A stretch of DNA of 9,367 nucleotides from Myxococcales bacterium (GTDB lineage: Bacteria; Myxococcota; Polyangia; Fen-1088): assembly GCA_003153875.1 (NCBI GenBank), contig PMBY01000190.1:2332-11698 (forward strand), given 5' to 3'. The notes below the pieces were generated by a model. That model did not search any database and had not been told where the DNA came from. It saw only the letters and a program-made list of their open reading frames with translations. Both the position numbers and the translations under genes were made by a program. Shown piece after piece: positions 1 to 9,367 of the stretch (positions are counted from its first letter, which is position 1; each line of letters begins with the position of its first letter).

Positions 1-372
1 GCCTCGCCCTTCGCCTCGGGCTCGGCCCTGTGGGACGCCGTGGTCGCCATCCCTTGCTCGGTGGGACGGTTGGCGCGCATCGCTCACGGCCTGGGCGACG
101 ATCTCATCAGCCGGGCCGCGGACGTGGCCTTGAAGGAACGGCGCAAGCTGGTGCTGGTGGTGCGCGAGACCCCGCTGTCGCAGATCCACCTGGAGAACAT
201 GTTGGCGGTGACACGCGCAGGGGCTGTGGTCTTGCCGGCGGCGCCGTCGTTCTACTTTCGGCCGACCACCGTTGAGCAGCTTGCCGACACAGTGGTGGCG
301 CGCGTGCTCGACCAACTGGGCATTGTCCACTCGCTTGGGCCCCGATGGGCCGAGGAGGACGCGCGGCGATGA
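1..372 (+). CDS. ubiX: UbiX-type flavin prenyltransferase, 3' part (5' truncated by window edge)
   Basis: Frame 1 is open from the first base to TGA at 370-372, giving 123 C-terminal residues of a family usually about 190-210 aa long. UbiX makes prenylated FMN from FMN and dimethylallyl phosphate; this cofactor serves UbiD-type decarboxylases. In the futalosine pathway the UbiX-like protein is also called MqnM. Visible family motifs are ASGS at the very start, AIPCS (residues 16-20), LKERRKL followed by RETPLSQIHLENM (flavin and phosphate binding region), the FYFRP tyrosine motif, and VVARVLDQLG near the end. From memory, the Lys, Arg and Tyr in these blocks match residues binding dimethylallyl phosphate in studied UbiX enzymes. 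The visible GTG at 40 lies inside the conserved fold and is not the real start. The stop overlaps the next gene by ATGA, and the following genes are menaquinone genes, so a role in menaquinone decarboxylation is likely. The family call is very secure; the pathway assignment is from context. Confidence 0.95.
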   Translation, partial: ASPFASGSALWDAVVAIPCSVGRLARIAHGLGDDLISRAADVALKERRKLVLVVRETPLSQIHLENMLAVTRAGAVVLPAAPSFYFRPTTVEQLADTVVARVLDQLGIVHSLGPRWAEEDARR

Positions 373-965
373 GCAGCCGTGTCGCAACGGCGACGAGCCC
401 CTCCGCGGATCTCTTCGTCATCGGCCGGGCCGCCCAGGCGGCATCCCGGAGCGCGACGGACGGACGCGGCTTCTTCGGTTGCAGCACCTTCATCGCGACG
501 TCACTTCCCATGCTGACCGAAGCCACGGGCCGCGGGCTGCGCGGCTTGCTCCGGCTTTCCCTGACGGCCGAAGAACCCGTGCAGGAGCAAGAAGGGCGCT
601 TGGCCCAGCTTGCGGATCAAGTTCGCGAAGGTCTGGTTCTCGACGGCGTCGTGCCCACACCCGAAGAAGATTGCCTGGGACTTGCCACCTTGCTGTTTGT
701 CGCCCGCTGTCGCCTGGCCCTGGCCGGAGTGCCGCATGTGCTCGTCGATCTGGATCGTCTCGGCCCCAAGTTGGGTCAGTTGGCGCTAGCTTTCGGCGCC
801 GACGAGCTTTGCGGGCCCATCGTGGAAACGCGGGCGCTGCGCCTGGGCGACAACGCCGGCAGCCGAGCGATCACACGCGTCGAGGCAGCCCAGCTTCTGT
901 GCGGGGCCGGGCTGCGTGCCTTCGAGCGCGTAGCGGGAGGTGGGCTGGAGGAGTTCCCGCCGTGA
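369..965 (+). CDS. MqnE/MqnC (CofH-like) paralogue lacking the radical-SAM core; function unknown
   Basis: 198-aa protein starting at ATG 369, which overlaps the ubiX stop (ATGA). GAGGAGG at 352-358 is a good ribosome binding site; the in-frame ATG at 345 lies upstream of it and is less likely. By eye, residues 121-153 (PHV...LGPKLGQLALAFGADEL...PIVE) align with the C-terminal domain of MqnE and MqnC next door: MqnC has MGPAVGQVALRFGGNDF and MqnE has GIKTAQTAQWFGADDL. Residues 102-120 match the preceding helix, and residues 48-88 (GLR, TAEE...EGRLAQLADQ) match the segment with GLR...ETIEERVEHLLRL. Residues 14-45 (DLFVIGRAAQ...GRGFF...FIATS) resemble the N-terminal helix and first strand of both enzymes. 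The roughly 170 residues between, with the CxxxCxxC 4Fe-4S motif and the GGG substrate block, are absent. Its five cysteines are scattered and do not form that motif, so it should not do radical-SAM chemistry. It may be a structural partner or a decayed copy kept in frame. The homology is from visual alignment only. Confidence 0.85.
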   Translation: MSSRVATATSPSADLFVIGRAAQAASRSATDGRGFFGCSTFIATSLPMLTEATGRGLRGLLRLSLTAEEPVQEQEGRLAQLADQVREGLVLDGVVPTPEEDCLGLATLLFVARCRLALAGVPHVLVDLDRLGPKLGQLALAFGADELCGPIVETRALRLGDNAGSRAITRVEAAQLLCGAGLRAFERVAGGGLEEFPP

Positions 966-2086
966 CCCTCGCCTCGATTTCCGAGAGAGTGAGCGCTGGG
1001 ATCCCGCTGTCTTTCGACGACGGCGTTGCCCTTTTCCGTGAGCCGGATCTGCTCAAGCTGGGCGCGCTGGCCAACCAGATGCGCGAGCAGCGCCACGGTG
1101 ATCGCACCACCTTCAATCGCAACCTGCACATCAACCCGAGCAACCTGTGCGTAGCGAGCTGTCCGCTGTGCTCGTTCTCGCGCCGCAACCCCGAGCAGCC
1201 CGGGGCCTACACCCTCAGCTTGTCGCAGGTATGGGACAAGCTCCAGGCGAGACTGGACGCTGGCGATTGCGTGACTGAAGTCCACGTGGTGGGCGGGCTC
1301 AATGACAGTCTGCCTTTCGACTACTACGTCGAACTTCTGGCCGGACTAAAAAGCATCCAGCCCACGCTTCACATCAAGGCCTTCAGTGCGGTCGAGATCT
1401 TCCACTTTCACAAGCTCTTCCAATTGGAAGTGCGCGAGGTCCTGCAACGCCTGGTGGCGGCTGGGCTAGGCTCGCTGCCCGGAGGAGGCGCCGAGATCTT
1501 CGCACCCCGGGTGCGCCAGCGCATCTGCCCCAACAAGTGCAACGCCGAACAGTGGCTGCAGGTCCATCGCACGGCACACCAGTTGGGTCTGCGCTCCAAC
1601 TGCACCATGCTCTATGGCACCATCGAGACCATCGAAGAACGGGTCGAGCACCTACTGCGCTTACGTACTCTTCAGGAGGAAACCGGCGGGTTCCAGGCCT
1701 TCATCCCCCTGACCTTTCACCCGGACAACAACGCCCTTTCGCATCTTCCCGCACCCACGGCGGTCGACGATCTGCGCGTGTGCGCGGTGTCGCGGCTGGT
1801 GCTGCACAACATTCCGCACATCAAGGCCTACTGGATCTCTTTGGGAATCAAGACCGCGCAGACCGCACAGTGGTTCGGCGCCGACGATCTGGACGGCACC
1901 GTGCAAGAGGAAAAAATCTATCACCTGGCTGGCTCAGATGCGCCGCAGTCCCTGACGCCGGCTGAAATTGTCCATCTCATCCGCGCGGCCGGCCGCACGC
2001 CCGTGGAACGGGACACGCTGTACAACGTCGTGGCACAAGGCGAGGCCCTGCCCACGTGCGCGTCGCCTGCGGGAGGGCAGCGATGA
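962..2086 (+). CDS. mqnE: Aminofutalosine synthase MqnE (radical SAM)
   Basis: 374 aa from GTG 962. The start overlaps the previous stop (GTGA) and has GGAGGAG at 947-953, eight bases upstream; the open frame further upstream is a shadow of the previous genes. MqnE joins 3-((1-carboxyvinyl)oxy)benzoate to the adenosyl part of SAM, giving 6-amino-6-deoxyfutalosine, in the cytoplasm. The 4Fe-4S motif CxxxCxxC is at C63, C67 and C70, after HINPSNLC. Other family blocks are HVVGGLND (108-115), HIKAFSAVEI, LPGGGAEIF (172-180), RICPNKCNAEQWLQVHRTAH, MLYGTIET, ETGGFQAFIPLTFHPDNN, IPHIKAYW and FGADDLDGTVQEEKIYH (GADDL from G306). The KAFSAVEI block and the GTVQEEKIYH ending favour MqnE over MqnC. Its length is normal for the family. 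Its neighbours MqnA-MqnC and UbiX support the pathway. The gene looks complete and intact. Confidence 0.96.
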   Translation: MTLASISERVSAGIPLSFDDGVALFREPDLLKLGALANQMREQRHGDRTTFNRNLHINPSNLCVASCPLCSFSRRNPEQPGAYTLSLSQVWDKLQARLDAGDCVTEVHVVGGLNDSLPFDYYVELLAGLKSIQPTLHIKAFSAVEIFHFHKLFQLEVREVLQRLVAAGLGSLPGGGAEIFAPRVRQRICPNKCNAEQWLQVHRTAHQLGLRSNCTMLYGTIETIEERVEHLLRLRTLQEETGGFQAFIPLTFHPDNNALSHLPAPTAVDDLRVCAVSRLVLHNIPHIKAYWISLGIKTAQTAQWFGADDLDGTVQEEKIYHLAGSDAPQSLTPAEIVHLIRAAGRTPVERDTLYNVVAQGEALPTCASPAGGQR

Positions 2087-3981
2087 GCCAGCGGCTGCGC
2101 CTGGCCGCGGTTTCCTTTCTGAACGCGCGGCCCATCACCTACGGGATCGAGCAGGGCCTGGTGGGCGCCGAACGCTTCGACCTGCGTTTCGCCGAACCAT
2201 CGCGCTGTGCCGCCGCGGTGGCCGCAGGCGAGGCAGACCTGGGGCTCATGCCCATCGCCAGCTACGCGGCCTCGGCCGAAGAACTGCGCGTGGTGCCCGG
2301 TATTGGCATCGCCAGCCGCGGCCCGGTGCGCACGGTTGTGCTGGTGGGTCAGGTGCCATGGGAAGAAATGACCGCCATCGCGCTCGACGGAGCCTCGCGT
2401 ACCTCGCAGATGTTGGCGCGCCTTCTGACCAAAGAGCGGGGCCTTGATCCCGACTTCGTCGAAGTGCCGCACAGCCAGATCGCAGATGCGGCAAGCGGCA
2501 CACGCGGCGCTCTCATCATTGGCGATCTCGGCCTGCTCATCGACGGCCGCTTTCGCCATGTTTACGACCTGGGTGAGAAATGGCACGGCTCGGTGGGACT
2601 TCCCTTTGTCTACGCCGTCTGGGCTGGCCGGCCAGGCGTGGTCTCGACCGAAGACGTGGCGCTGTTGCAGGAAAGTCTGCGGCTGGGCTTGCAGCGCAGG
2701 GCGGAGATCGGGCGGGCCTGGGCCCTGGACAATGGCGTCGACCCTGCGGTGGGCGAGAAGTACCTGCTGGAAAACATTCGCCACCGCCTCACTTCAGACG
2801 AAATTTCCGGCGCCACGGCCTTTCTCGCGCGCAGTTACCAGGCCGGCCTTCTGGCCAAACCCATGCGCGTGCGCTTGTTCGATGCAGCGGTGCCGCCGCA
2901 CCCACAGCCGCGCTCAAGGCTGTCCCTGGATCGCCTGGTAGCGGACGCTGCCGCGGGCGAGCGCTTGAGTCTCGACGAGGGCGTGCGCCTGTATTCGGAG
3001 GCGCCCTTGTTCGACTTGGGCCAGGCCGCCGACCTTCGCCGTCAGTCGCTGCATCCGGAAGGCGTGGTGACCTACATCATTGACCGCAACATCAACTACA
3101 CCAACGCCTGCACCACTTGCTGTTCGTTCTGCAATTTCCACCGGACCCCAGGCCACCCGCAAGCCTACACACTTTCGCGCGAAGAGCTGGCGCAGAAGCT
3201 TCGCGAGACAGTCGAGCTGGGCGGCGTGCAGGTGTTGCTCCAGGGCGGTATCAATCCCGATCTGTCGCTTGCGTACTACGAAGATCTTTTTCGCTTCATG
3301 AAGGCGAACTTTCCTTTGGCGATTCACGGCTTGTCGCCCGAGGAGATTCGCTACCTGTCCGAGCGCGAGGGCTTGCCGGTGCGGACCGTGCTCGAACGCC
3401 TGGTGGCCGCGGGCCTGGATTCGGTTCCCGGCGGCGCGGCCGAGATTCTCGACGACGAAATTCGCCGACGCATCTCGCCCAAGAAATGTTCGGCTGACAC
3501 CTGGATCGATGTTATGCGCGAGGCGCATGGGCTTGGCCTGCGCACCACGGCCACCATGGTCTTTGGTTTCGGGGAATCGCCGCGGCAACTGCTGGGGCAC
3601 CTGGACCGTCTGCGCCGCCTGCAAGATCAGACCGCGGGCTTCACCGCCTTCATCTGCTGGAGCTTCCAAGCCGAGGGCACCCGCCTGCCGCTCACCGACG
3701 ACACCGGCAGCCTCCGCTATTTGCGCGTGCTGGCTCTGGCGCGCCTCTACCTCGACAACTTCCCCAACCTGCAGGTCTCCTGGGTCACCATGGGACCGGC
3801 CGTGGGACAGGTTGCCCTGCGCTTCGGCGGCAACGACTTTGGCTCGGCCATGATCGAAGAAAACGTGGTGGCCACCGCGGGCACGGTATTCAAGATTTCC
3901 GCCAGCGATATCGAACGCTGCGTGCGCGGTGCGGGCTTCATTCCTCGCCGGCGCAACATGCGCTACGAACTCATCGACTGA
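2083..3981 (+). CDS. mqnA-mqnC: Fused MqnA-MqnC: chorismate dehydratase / cyclic dehypoxanthinyl futalosine synthase
   Basis: 632 aa from ATG 2083, overlapping the mqnE stop (ATGA), with GGAGGG at 2072-2077. Residues 1 to about 268 are MqnA, which dehydrates chorismate to 3-enolpyruvyl-benzoate: SFLNARP (11-17, the SYLN-like motif whose Asn I recall as catalytically implicated), DLGLMPIASY (52-61), LDGASRTSQ (101-109), LIIGD (144-148) and PFVYAVWAGR (174-183), a periplasmic-binding-protein-like fold. A Pro-rich linker (about 269-280) leads into MqnC, a radical-SAM enzyme that closes the ring of dehypoxanthine futalosine. Its CxxxCxxC is at C343, C347 and C350; further blocks are LLQGGINPDL, VPGGAAEIL, ISPKKCSADTW, MVFGFGE, FICWSFQAEGT, VSWVTMGP and FGGNDFGSAMIEENV. 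The two enzymes catalyse the first and a later, non-consecutive step, and are normally separate proteins of about 280 and 370 aa. No stop interrupts the linker and both halves look intact, so this is a real fusion unless a base is missing from the sequence. Confidence 0.95.
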   Translation: MSQRLRLAAVSFLNARPITYGIEQGLVGAERFDLRFAEPSRCAAAVAAGEADLGLMPIASYAASAEELRVVPGIGIASRGPVRTVVLVGQVPWEEMTAIALDGASRTSQMLARLLTKERGLDPDFVEVPHSQIADAASGTRGALIIGDLGLLIDGRFRHVYDLGEKWHGSVGLPFVYAVWAGRPGVVSTEDVALLQESLRLGLQRRAEIGRAWALDNGVDPAVGEKYLLENIRHRLTSDEISGATAFLARSYQAGLLAKPMRVRLFDAAVPPHPQPRSRLSLDRLVADAAAGERLSLDEGVRLYSEAPLFDLGQAADLRRQSLHPEGVVTYIIDRNINYTNACTTCCSFCNFHRTPGHPQAYTLSREELAQKLRETVELGGVQVLLQGGINPDLSLAYYEDLFRFMKANFPLAIHGLSPEEIRYLSEREGLPVRTVLERLVAAGLDSVPGGAAEILDDEIRRRISPKKCSADTWIDVMREAHGLGLRTTATMVFGFGESPRQLLGHLDRLRRLQDQTAGFTAFICWSFQAEGTRLPLTDDTGSLRYLRVLALARLYLDNFPNLQVSWVTMGPAVGQVALRFGGNDFGSAMIEENVVATAGTVFKISASDIERCVRGAGFIPRRRNMRYELID

Positions 3982-4727: not shown

Positions 4728-4993
4728 GGGACAGAGTCTAGACCTGACCTCGGCTCTGCGGAAGCTCATGTCGGGAAGAATCCCCGGCCACAGCTCCCAG
4801 ACACGCGCGCCGGCGTGACGCGTTTGTGGCGTGAACACGCCGGAACGTCGTTGCGGGCTATCCGAAACCGCGCGTGGAGGCGAGGGCAGTCACCGGCAAG
4901 GTCATGGCACTGGGCCGGAGGAGGTGTAGATGCAGCCTGGGCCGGCCCTAGCGATTGCGCACGCGACAGCTGAGGCCGCCGCGTGCGACGGGA
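4728..4993. other. Intergenic region between the two minus-strand lipoprotein genes, with GGCGTG repeats
   Basis: 266 bases with no convincing gene. It lies downstream of the 961-aa gene and upstream of the 245-aa gene, so it should hold a terminator for the first and a promoter for the second; I can identify neither with certainty. It does contain CCGGCGTG (4810-4817) and its inverse CACGCCGG (4836-4843), plus another GGCGTGA at 4828-4834 that forms GGCGTG-AA-CACGCC (4828-4841). This cluster sits about 85-115 bases upstream of the 245-aa lipoprotein start and could be an operator. A 10-bp palindrome GGGCCGGCCC is at 4939-4948. Confidence 0.4.
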
Positions 4994-7879
4994 CTACGGC
5001 AGCCGGCTCACAGGGCAGTAGTTGATGCGATTGTTGGCATCGCCCCAAGCACCGCCCATCCAAAGGTTCGCCTTGTCGGGCGAGAGCAGGATGTAGCCAT
5101 TGTACAAGACGTCCGTGGCCGTCAGAGGCTCGTCGATGACCGTGCCGTCGATCCGGCTGACCCGCGTCATCTGCGCCTGGAAGTCATAGTAGAAGAGCCA
5201 CTGGCTCTGGGCCGAATACATCCCGACGGGCAGGGGCATCGACGTGACCTGCTTCTTGGCCGTGCCATTGTAGGCAACCGACCAGGCCGTCCCGTCCTTG
5301 TGTAGGTAGAGGATGCGCGCGGCGTCGGGATAGTCGCCGATGATGGTGCCTGCGCCGCTCTCGAGATCGGTGTCGAAGTAGTTAGGCGAAAGCAGGGCGT
5401 GCAGCTCAAGGTTGCCATTACATGCCTCCAGGAAGAAGCAGGAATTGCCGGCGGCCTGCACCTGGACGACGGGACACGTGACGGTGACTGCCGCAGAGGG
5501 GGCCGCGCCAAGCGCCGCGGTCCGAATCGTGTCGGCCACCGACCAGCAGGCTCGGGTCGTCGCGTCGGTCGTGCCCGTGGCGACCGACAGTGAATAGGTG
5601 AATCCACCCGAAGCCTGGTTCCACGTGTCGAGTTGCGTGGCGACTCCGTTGTCGATCGGAATCCAGCGCAGGTACCTCTGGGCGCCACTGTACTCGATGA
5701 AATAGAACGCTCGACCCTGGACGCCATAGTTGTAGGCGTTGAATCCGGCAGTGGGCAGACCAGTATCGGTCGGGGCCGCCGCGCTGACCGGCCAGGCCCA
5801 CAAATTGCCCGCGCTGTCCCAGATGAAGAAGCCCGACGAATCGGACGTTCCCCAGACCCCGTTGATGTACGCCTGCGACGTGAAGACGTACCGCTCCGGC
5901 CCGGTCAGGTGGACGAGGAACCAGCGCTTCCCAGCGCAGGTCGAATCCGCACAAGCATTGCCGATCAGCCAGGTCTTGTCGGGTGTCAGGATGAACGTTG
6001 AATAATACGTTCCCTCGGCCCAAGACCAGAAGCCGGGGGCATAGGGGGCCGGGGCGGCAACAGCCGGATCTAGCGAGACGAAGTGCAGGGCTGCCGTCGC
6101 GGCGGCGGGTGTGGGCGTCGTCGCGTAGAAAAACAGCGTATCCGTGGCCTGCCCAGAGACCAGCGTCTCGCTAGCATTCCCTGAGTAGAACTTTTGCGAC
6201 GAGGTCGAACCATCATTGGGGACGATCCAGTAGTCGAAGTAGCCCGTGAGAGAACTGCTGTATCTATACACGAGCGACTTGCCGCCGGAGAAGTAGTAAT
6301 TATTGAGCGGAGTCTCAGCCAGGGGAAATGGCGGAGACGCGTCGCCGAGTTTCTTCGACCAGAAGATGTAGGAGTTTCCCTGGCACTGGTACGAGAGGAA
6401 GTAGCTGTTGCTCAGCCCGAGCGACCTCGTCCCCGCGAGGGAGGCGAGGACGGGGGGCGTGCTCGCGTCGGCGGGCGTGGTGATGAAGCCAGGGCTGCCG
6501 TAGTTTGGCCCGTTGGTGGTGATGACCACGTTCTTGCTATCGGGGGTGAAGCTGAACTGCGCGTACACCGTGTCCCGGCCGATATCCTCGATGAGCGTCG
6601 CGCGTTCAAGGACGACGGGCTCGACGAGCGTGGTGGCGCTCGGGTTGACGCTAAGCGAATCGACCTGGACCGTGTCGTAGGTGCTCTTGCTGAAGGCGAC
6701 TGTATAGACACCGGCCGGGACGTTGGTGATGGTGAAGGCTCCGGTCGTCGAGGTGCTCACCGCCGGGATAGCCGTGCCGACGAGGCTGACGCTGATGCCG
6801 CTCGAGTCGGCCTGGCCGAGGAGCGTAGCCTGCCCAACCAGCGTTCCGCTACACCCCGTCGTGCAGCTCCCATCCGCCACGCAGGTTCCGCTGCCATTGT
6901 CGTGAGATCCCGCCGCACACCCGGCGTTGGCTCCGTTGCACACGTAGACGGTGTGCTGGACCTCGCCGGGTTGCAGGGTGCCGTCGTTGTTCTGGTCCAC
7001 GCCACTTTGCACAGCCACGCCGCCGCTTGTGCAGTTCAGCCCTGCGGGTTCAGGCGTAACCAAGACCAGGGAGTTGAGCCCACTACCGGTTGCACCCGTT
7101 GCTCCAGTTGCACCCGCTGGTCCGGTTGCGCCGGCTGGCCCAGCTGCGCCGGCTGGCCCAGTTGCGCCGGCTGGCCCGGTTGCACCCGCTGGTCCGGTTG
7201 CGCCTTGCGGTCCTGCAGCACCATTCAGTCCATTGCTCCCGTTGAGCCCGTTGTTGCCGTTGATCCCGTTAGTACCCTGCGGGCCGGTCGCTCCTGTCGC
7301 CCCTGTGGCTCCCTGCGGCCCGGTCGCGCCCTGCGGGCCAGTCGTCCCCTGCAAACCCTGTGGCCCTATCGCCCCGGTAGCGCCGGTCGCACCGGTGGCG
7401 CCCTGCGGCCCCTGTGCCCCTGTAACACCCGTCGCGCCCTGCGGCCCCGTAGTCCCATTGCACACCAAAGTCGTGGAAGATACTTCCGAGTTGTCGAGGA
7501 TTCCGTTGCGGTTCTGGTCGAGGCCGAACTGGATGCTCGATCCGCCCGCTGCGCACTGGCTACCCGGGCTCACGGGCGTGATGCGGACAGCGGCGTTCAC
7601 ACCATTCAGGTTGGTCTGCGTCCAGGTCTTGGTGCTACCTTTGCAAACGTAGAACGAGGAAGAGCTCCAGACGTACCAAACCTCGCCGTCCTGAGTGGAC
7701 CCACAGGTCGGCAAAGACGAAGTGGTCAGCGCGAACTGAACCGCGGTGATGTCGGCCGCCGAAGGCGCGCCGGCCTTGTTCTGGCCCGAACACGCCACCG
7801 CACCGGCCAGCAAGCCCAGCATTGCCAGCACGACATGATTTCGACTCTGACTACGGGTTCTCGTCGTCGTAGGACTCAT
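4994..7879 (-). CDS. Large mosaic lipoprotein: duplicated Cys/EF-hand-like module, collagen-like repeats, beta-sandwich, probable beta-propeller
   Basis: 961 aa from ATG 7879, with GGAGGAA at 7884-7890 on the minus strand. Residues 1-30 are a signal peptide (RTRSQSRN, then a hydrophobic stretch) ending GAVA-C30, a plausible though not ideal lipobox. Residues about 99-141 are a module with two Cys, an EF-hand-like loop [12 protein letters not shown] (121-132) and terminal VCNG. Residues 142-267 are 42 unbroken Gly-X-Y triplets, mostly GAT, GPQ and GPA, with an Asn-rich block ([18 protein letters not shown]) at 202-219. Residues about 271-316 repeat the module ([12 protein letters not shown], 295-306, VCNG). 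A short Cys-rich segment (320-344) follows, then a carboxypeptidase-regulatory-like beta-sandwich (about 344-425). Residues 430-961 are rich in Tyr, Trp, Gly and Ser with repeated TPD/SPDK motifs (445, 632, 933), suggesting a PD40/TolB-like propeller. I infer a surface-exposed, possibly calcium-binding adhesion or binding protein; its ligand is unknown. The gene is complete. Confidence 0.88.
7079..7456 (-). repeat. Collagen-like Gly-X-Y coding region (42 triplets)
   Basis: Every third codon from residue 142 to 265 encodes Gly without interruption. The X-Y pairs are dominated by AT, PQ and PA. Bacterial collagen-like stretches can form triple helices without hydroxyproline, so the protein may be a trimer. 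The Asn-rich run at about 7223-7276 divides two GPQ/GAT/GPA-type stretches. Confidence 0.9.
7107..7196 (-). repeat. Five 18-bp tandem repeats inside the collagen-like region
   Basis: Units start at 7107, 7125, 7143, 7161 and 7179. Read on the + strand they are variants of GTTGCGCCGGCTGGCCCA; units 1 and 5 are identical to each other, and units 2, 3 and 4 differ at one or two positions. Each encodes two Gly-X-Y triplets (GPAGAT or GPAGAA). Such near-identical 18-mers can change copy number in frame by slippage or recombination. Confidence 0.85.
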
Positions 7880-8000: not shown

Positions 8001-8167
8001 CTCGCCGCAATGCCGGGGACACTGTAGGAATGTGACGTCCGCGCGGTCCATAGTAAGTTCGTCGAGACGCTCGCACGACGCCGGGCGGCGAGAAGATCAA
8101 GATGGCCGCGCCTCCTTCGCATTCCCCAAACAGGCCGTCGCGCGCTCGCCCGCGCAGGACGCAGACG

Positions 8168-8473
8168 ATGCAGGAAGGTCTTCGCGTGGCGCAGTTCCGC
8201 GCGGGCGGCGACGAATTCGTCGTGGTCAGCGAGCCGATCGTCGGCGCTGATGTCTTTGCCGCCCTCACTCAGGCGGAGCGCGAAGTGGCGCGCCTGGTGG
8301 CAGATGGGTGTTCCAACCGAGCCATCGCGGCAAGACGGGGCGCCCGCCCACGGACGGTTGCCAATCAACTGGCCGCCATCTATCGAAAGCTCGCGGTTTC
8401 GTCGCGGTCAGAGTTGGTCGCCCGGCTTGTCGGCTTGCCGGCCGAACGACGTGGTTACCAGCGCGGCCCGTGA
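8168..8473 (+). CDS. Small LuxR-type HTH transcriptional regulator
   Basis: 101 aa from ATG 8168 with a weak AGGA upstream; an alternative in-frame ATG at 8102 would add 22 Arg/Pro-rich residues that look unlike a domain. Residues 1-30 form a short beta-like N-terminal segment (RVAQFRAGGDEFVVVSEPI). Residues 32-88 are a LuxR/GerE four-helix DNA-binding domain: LTQAEREVARLVADG, then the helix-turn-helix CSNRAIAARRGARPRTVANQL and AAIYRKLAVSSRSELV. No receiver, autoinducer-binding or other sensor domain is present, so it must act with a partner or respond in an unknown way. It is divergent from the 961-aa lipoprotein gene, sharing the inverted repeat upstream, and converges on the larger LuxR gene with a 66-bp overlap. 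Its target is unknown. Confidence 0.78.
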   Translation: MQEGLRVAQFRAGGDEFVVVSEPIVGADVFAALTQAEREVARLVADGCSNRAIAARRGARPRTVANQLAAIYRKLAVSSRSELVARLVGLPAERRGYQRGP

Positions 8474-9367
8474 CCGCAGGCCCAGCTTGCGCAAGGCGCC
8501 CGACAGATGGGTCGCCACTGACGACGGCGACAGCCCGAGGGTGTAAGCGATTTCCTTGTTCGACTGGCCGAGCTGTGCGAAGGCGGCCACGCTCGCCTCT
8601 CGTTGCGACAGTCCGCGCAGGTTCGGCAGGCTCGGCTGATTCCGGTGCGCGATGAGATAGCGGCGGCCGTCGGATTCAAAGCGATCGACCAGCGACCAAC
8701 GTCCGGCGCAAAGGGCACGCCAAAGTTCGAGCGCCTCTTGCGGGTGGTTTCTGCGCAGGGGCCCGCGCGACCGATCGATCGCGCGCGCCGCGGTCCGTAA
8801 TCGCTCGCGTGCGTCGGCTTGCTTGGCCACGCCCGTGGCGTGCAGCACGCTGCCCGACGGGGAGAGCACTGCCTCGTCCTCGACTTTTTCCTGCTCGATA
8901 CGGCGTCGCAGTCGAAGCGCCGACGCCATGTGCGCCGTGATCCGTTGCCAGCGGGCCACGTCCCGCGCGGACACGGTCTGTTCCAGCGCACGCGGGGAAA
9001 GGATGCCGATTCCACCATCGGGATCGGCCGCATGAACCATGAGGGCATCGGCGAAACCAAGCTGACGGTAGAAGTTGTCGTGCCACTCGCGCGTTTGTGG
9101 CGGCAACTTCGCCACCTGCTGACTGAAGCTATAATAGGGTTTGCGGACGTCAATCGCACCGGCAAGGTAATCCGCCGACGCTCCGTCGTTCATTTGTCGA
9201 AGGATGTCTTCCCATGCCGGATTGCCACTCGCGAACGCCGTGAAGGTCAGACGGCCACCGTGCCAGCGGTAGGTGAATCCATAGACGCCGATGCTCTGGT
9301 CAATCGCCGGCCCGACCGCTTCCAGCAGCCGGTCAATCCACTCGCTCTCGCTGCCCTGCAAGGCATA
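8408..9367 (-). CDS. LuxR-family regulator with N-terminal sensor-like region (5' end outside window)
   Basis: The minus-strand frame is open from the window end to the stop at 8408, giving about 319 visible residues; the real start probably lies just beyond 9367. TTG 9361 is in frame but sits within a sequence (YALQGSESEW) that looks internal. Numbered from TTG 9361, residues 1 to about 160 resemble a GAF/PAS-like sensing region, ending in a helical, basic stretch (ALRLRRRIEQEK). Residues 163-240 have a PAS-like pattern (VLSPSGSVLHATG, then WSLVDRFESDGRRYLIA). Residues 248-303 are the LuxR HTH: LRGLSQREASVAAFAQLGQ, SNKEIAYTLGLSPSSVATHL, then LRKLGLRSRAALV. There is no receiver domain, so it is probably a one-component regulator; the signal is not evident. 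The last 22 codons overlap the convergent small LuxR gene. Confidence 0.88.
   Translation of the reverse strand, partial: YALQGSESEWIDRLLEAVGPAIDQSIGVYGFTYRWHGGRLTFTAFASGNPAWEDILRQMNDGASADYLAGAIDVRKPYYSFSQQVAKLPPQTREWHDNFYRQLGFADALMVHAADPDGGIGILSPRALEQTVSARDVARWQRITAHMASALRLRRRIEQEKVEDEAVLSPSGSVLHATGVAKQADARERLRTAARAIDRSRGPLRRNHPQEALELWRALCAGRWSLVDRFESDGRRYLIAHRNQPSLPNLRGLSQREASVAAFAQLGQSNKEIAYTLGLSPSSVATHLSGALRKLGLRSRAALVTTSFGRQADKPGDQL

Follow-up and report, generated by a model that had tools for sequence, protein, structure and literature searches.

The aminofutalosine synthase MqnE (TIGR03700; PDB 6xi9/6xig) and the cyclic dehypoxanthinyl futalosine synthase MqnC (TIGR03699) are radical S-adenosylmethionine (radical-SAM) enzymes of the futalosine pathway to menaquinone. 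MqnE possesses a full barrel, the CxxxCxxC motif and three signatures in its consensus (KAYW, DLDGT, EExIYH), and MqnC and CofH (TIGR03551, Pfam CofH_C) are active radical-SAM enzymes as well. CofG and CofH are related proteins whose genes lie together and serve a single cofactor pathway; as judged by eye from the CofG/CofH-like pairs of two loci (L096 and L097), both partners keep CxxxCxxC. Other enzyme families are known to have pseudoenzyme partners. The distribution of the two menaquinone pathways is treated in PMC13386864, and 6XI9 is mentioned as a modelling template in PMC8498797. In this study, we analyzed a 9,367-nucleotide stretch of DNA from a Myxococcales bacterium (assembly GCA_003153875.1, contig PMBY01000190.1, positions 2,332 to 11,698; hereafter the window), in which the 198-residue open reading frame (ORF) that a preliminary description had placed in a menaquinone operon lies between ubiX and mqnE. 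Its product, here called the core-less protein, is closest to MqnE in profile and fold and shares with it the operon and the order of N-terminal and C-terminal modules, but the full barrel, the CxxxCxxC motif and the three signatures are not found in it.

Kinship with MqnE and loss of the radical-SAM core

The likeness to the C-terminal part of MqnE and MqnC, first noticed by eye, was borne out by profile searches, in which residues 101-187 of the core-less protein matched TIGR03700 (E 1.7e-7) and residues 108-187 matched TIGR03699 (E 2.9e-5). The protein scores 30.5 bits against the MqnE model and is thus under the family cut-off of 434.55 bits. In profile-profile comparison, the C-terminal similarity to MqnE exceeds chance over 142 columns (E 9.3e-14 for type A, to which the window protein belongs), and the other two types of core-less protein reach E 6.9e-13 (type B) and 1.9e-11 (type C). 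MqnC and CofH share this region with mostly weaker scores, and in a tree of the C-terminal block (122 columns, 46 rows; four selected rows failed the block pattern and long branches were flagged) the core-less proteins group apart from both MqnE and MqnC. The additional claim of an N-terminal helix in common with MqnE stands in part. The predicted fold of the window protein matches MqnE over model residues 5-198, and the helix similarity is significant in type B (E 1.6e-5), whereas in the window's own type it is colinear but weak (E 0.13). Type B clearly keeps the N-terminal helix and the first strand, and types A and C are weakly alignable there by sequence. Profile search, single-protein structure prediction, relatives at the same place and the ratio of nonsynonymous to synonymous substitution rates (dN/dS) all support, and together confirm, that the core-less gene is an MqnE/MqnC paralogue.

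The radical-SAM core is missing, as had been reported. CxxxCxxC is absent from all 135 aligned core-less rows, that of the window protein included, and is kept in 58/58 rows of MqnE itself, the 21 gene-bearing ones among them. Radical_SAM (PF04055) gave no match in the window protein and none up to E 0.01 in ten relatives; indeed, the window protein matched no Pfam model at E 1 or below. CofH_C (PF19288) is likewise unmatched in the window protein and matched below its cut-off in two of the ten relatives, and precomputed annotation assigns it to the relatives P0164 and P0261. Among the models searched, no Pfam or NCBIfam model is specific to the core-less proteins, and among the matches listed, relatives that carry a name are in most cases called ‘hypothetical protein’ or ‘2-iminoacetate synthase ThiH’. 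When core-less relatives were sought by sequence among solved structures, only MqnE itself and weak radical-SAM or chance matches were returned.

Comparison of 133 core-less with 47 MqnE rows, after removal of two type A and 11 MqnE rows that failed the block pattern, showed that the core-less consensus retains the helix Gxxx[AG]QxxLxFGA, while KAYW, DLDGT and EExIYH are gone from the consensus of each type, type B retaining the W of KAYW. Thus, both the SAM side and MqnE-specific C-terminal signatures have been lost. The C-terminal module is the constant part in every type and the other parts vary: type B matches MqnE only at both ends, type A retains several strands together with the invariant polar residues R58, R62, H123 and D127, and the window protein is without a segment of about 39 residues that relatives of about 237 residues keep.

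Selection, inheritance and pathway context

Among six close relatives (15 pairs), the core-less gene shows dN/dS values of 0.17-0.30, the frames of L001 and L002 being read from an ATG that lies eight codons upstream of the one taken as start in the other analyses; mqnE of the same six genomes shows 0.11-0.19. Differences in the core-less gene are distributed 110/62/252 over the three codon positions (four sequences, six pairs). Purifying selection thus acts on the protein, if somewhat less strongly than on mqnE. Its frame is also open in distant genomes.

Presence was counted within Myxococcota from a survey of the slot between ubiX and mqnE, because no more than 10 or 11 candidates were scored for each genome in the phylum scans. 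Fifty-four of 282 sampled genomes had an MqnE match at E 1e-100 or better; one (G050, locus L095) was left out, as its MqnE is under the family cut-off, shares 37% identity with that of the window and has no adjoining ubiX, leaving 53. The distance from ubiX to mqnE in the 52 inspected loci with both genes is bimodal, measuring 418-749 nt in 15 and -3 to 105 nt in 37. Every long-gap locus holds a core-less gene (one of type A, nine of type B, five of type C) and none of the short-gap loci does; counting G005 (type A), the gene occurs in 16 of the 53 genomes. The members have in common the slot between ubiX and mqnE, a common clade and the lack of the cluster motif. Named relatives, among the best 120 of 663 and 120 of 227 matches, which may include fragments, are Myxococcota, Polyangia or deltaproteobacterial.

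In the MqnE tree (midpoint-rooted, with long MqnC branches), the rows of type A and those of type C each lie on one side of a branch, and the type B rows lie together, interrupted only by G263, which has no core-less gene; 36 rows without the core-less gene form one clade (support 100/100). This pattern suggests vertical inheritance of the gene, which was lost on at least one occasion. The gene may have been gained once, within the lineages that carry it, or earlier, with loss from the others.

As in the window, MqnA and MqnC occupy one open frame in 15/15 core-less-bearing loci of the slot survey. At least two matches to PF02621, taken to be MqnA and MqnD, were found in 18/20 bearing and 20/20 lacking genomes, and PF01048 was matched in 20/20 of each. 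The latter is a broad family, also matched in 13/14 control genomes, and its matches show a nucleosidase, not MqnB itself. The core-less gene thus seems to replace no missing step.

Putative role of the core-less protein

Among the three options offered in the preliminary description, a non-catalytic subunit or scaffold fits best. On balance, the core-less protein is probably a pseudo-radical-SAM protein of single MqnE-like origin that serves as a putative non-catalytic structural subunit for MqnE, or for MqnE and the MqnA::MqnC fusion. It most likely arose once, by duplication of an MqnE-like ancestor and internal loss of the barrel strands with the cluster and substrate loops. Without the [4Fe-4S] cluster-binding residues but with the C-terminal module around Gxxx[AG]QxxLxFGA, it would be made together with MqnE from the overlapping genes. 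As its partner we infer MqnE, which it would bind or bridge to the MqnA::MqnC fusion, and the bound protein might stabilize MqnE or help to pass the MqnA product to it. The trypanosome AdoMetDC prozyme would be an analogy in the way of working, being a catalytically dead paralogue in a heterodimer with its enzyme (PMC6221367). However, it comes from an unrelated family, the partner of the core-less protein is putative, and most sampled genomes have MqnE without a core-less protein. It is conceivable, albeit doubtful, that such a subunit holds MqnE and MqnA::MqnC in a menaquinone metabolon in one large Myxococcota group, and that the MqnE-MqnA fusion of another lineage does the same job.

Several observations weigh against a structural subunit. 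The dN/dS of the core-less gene is somewhat above that of mqnE, and 37 of the 53 sampled mqnE genomes manage without the gene. In G263 (L082), which lies inside the type B clade, mqnE directly follows ubiX, the core-less gene was not found elsewhere in the genome either, and the MqnE branch (0.17) is not longer than that of its sister (0.20), so the protein appears dispensable at least there. This apparent loss and the 37 genomes therefore argue against a strictly essential role. In addition, the invariant R58, R62, H123 and D127 of type A could instead be part of a pocket wall. In the role of a ligand carrier or channel component, the latter proposed in the preliminary description, the half barrel would hold an unstable acidic intermediate and pass it between MqnA, MqnE and MqnC, in keeping also with the strands that type A retains and with the adjoining frame shared by MqnA and MqnC. 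Yet type B keeps the same slot and C-terminal module with little left for a pocket, as it matches MqnE only at its two ends, and the MqnE C-terminal signatures have disappeared from the consensus of types A, B and C; we consider a carrier unlikely.

The polar residues of type A would also suit a new kind of catalysis that needs no radical, in menaquinone synthesis or alongside it, such as the replacement of a missing enzyme. However, the block common to types A, B and C has no shared catalytic-type polar residues in its consensus, and the PF02621 and PF01048 matches (family-level models) make replacement of MqnD or a nucleosidase unlikely, so that new catalysis is quite improbable. Much the same can be said of an aid to MqnE expression or assembly, by folding or cluster loading, that does not stay bound: the gene lies directly upstream of mqnE and overlaps it, but the protein has no cluster-type cysteine motif, and the Pfam and TIGR searches of the window protein found no chaperone or nucleic-acid-binding family. 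As for the decaying copy of the preliminary description, the segment missing from the window form and the dN/dS above that of mqnE would agree with it, but the dN/dS range, the codon-position differences and the open frames in distant genomes led us to reject it as hardly conceivable.

No description of the core-less protein was found in the literature searched, which consisted mostly of titles and abstracts, partly of top-ranked matches only, with thin coverage of subscription papers. A conserved radical-SAM barrel that lacks its SAM/cluster part and is maintained in an operon of primary metabolism over much of a bacterial phylum seems to be undescribed. The family offers natural material for studying which part of the radical-SAM barrel serves protein contacts and whether the enzymes of the futalosine pathway act in a complex.

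Locus layout and further observations

The operon does contain three family members, one of them core-less (Table 1), and the 4-base overlaps reported at both ends of the core-less gene are present. The ORF listing starts the gene at ATG 345; the ATG used here forms an ATGA overlap with the ubiX stop that is conserved in loci L001-L004 (rows L083, L093 and L094 were left out of the overlap counts), and the 3' end overlaps mqnE by 4 nt. The ribosome-binding site noted earlier is present as a putative one.

Table 1. Features of the menaquinone operon in the window
Feature	Position	Strand	Evidence
ubiX-type flavin prenyltransferase, 3' portion (truncated by the start of the window)	1..372	+	TIGR00421 E 3.7e-46; PF02441 E 4.2e-29
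AGGAGG, putative ribosome-binding site of core-less gene	353..358	+	sequence; 10 nt upstream of ATG 369
Core-less pseudo-MqnE, type A short form, 198 aa	369..965	+	profile, fold, relatives, selection
Residues 101-187 of core-less protein, match to MqnE C-terminal end	669..929	+	TIGR03700 positions 258-344, E 1.7e-7
mqnE, aminofutalosine synthase, intact with CxxxCxxC	962..2086	+	TIGR03700 475.7 bits, cut-off 434.55
mqnA::mqnC fusion (chorismate dehydratase + cyclic dehypoxanthinyl futalosine synthase)	2083..3981	+	PF02621 residues 5-252; TIGR03699 residues 293-631, 453.2 bits

In locus L005, the core-less gene (4956-5672) directly follows a UbiE-type methyltransferase frame, and no ubiX was found in the locus. 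In seven genomes (L058, L084, L087-L091), a single open frame of 988-1299 aa encodes both MqnE and MqnA, and within it MqnC was recognized in three (L058, L088 and L090); these seven loci have no core-less gene and form one MqnE clade (support 95/89). A second full-length MqnE as parent, suspected from weak matches in G277 and G263, was rejected, as these proved on reading of the ORFs by eye to be CofG/CofH-like pairs. The pairs of L096 and L097, read in the same way in two Myxococcota genomes, suggest F420-type deazaflavin synthesis there. Elsewhere in the window, a 961-aa ORF on the minus strand (4994-7879) has, by eye, a long collagen-like GxxGPQGATG repeat region, and a pair of convergent ORFs with overlapping 3' ends (8102-8473 plus, 8408-9361 minus) each show, also by eye, an apparent C-terminal LuxR-type helix-turn-helix.
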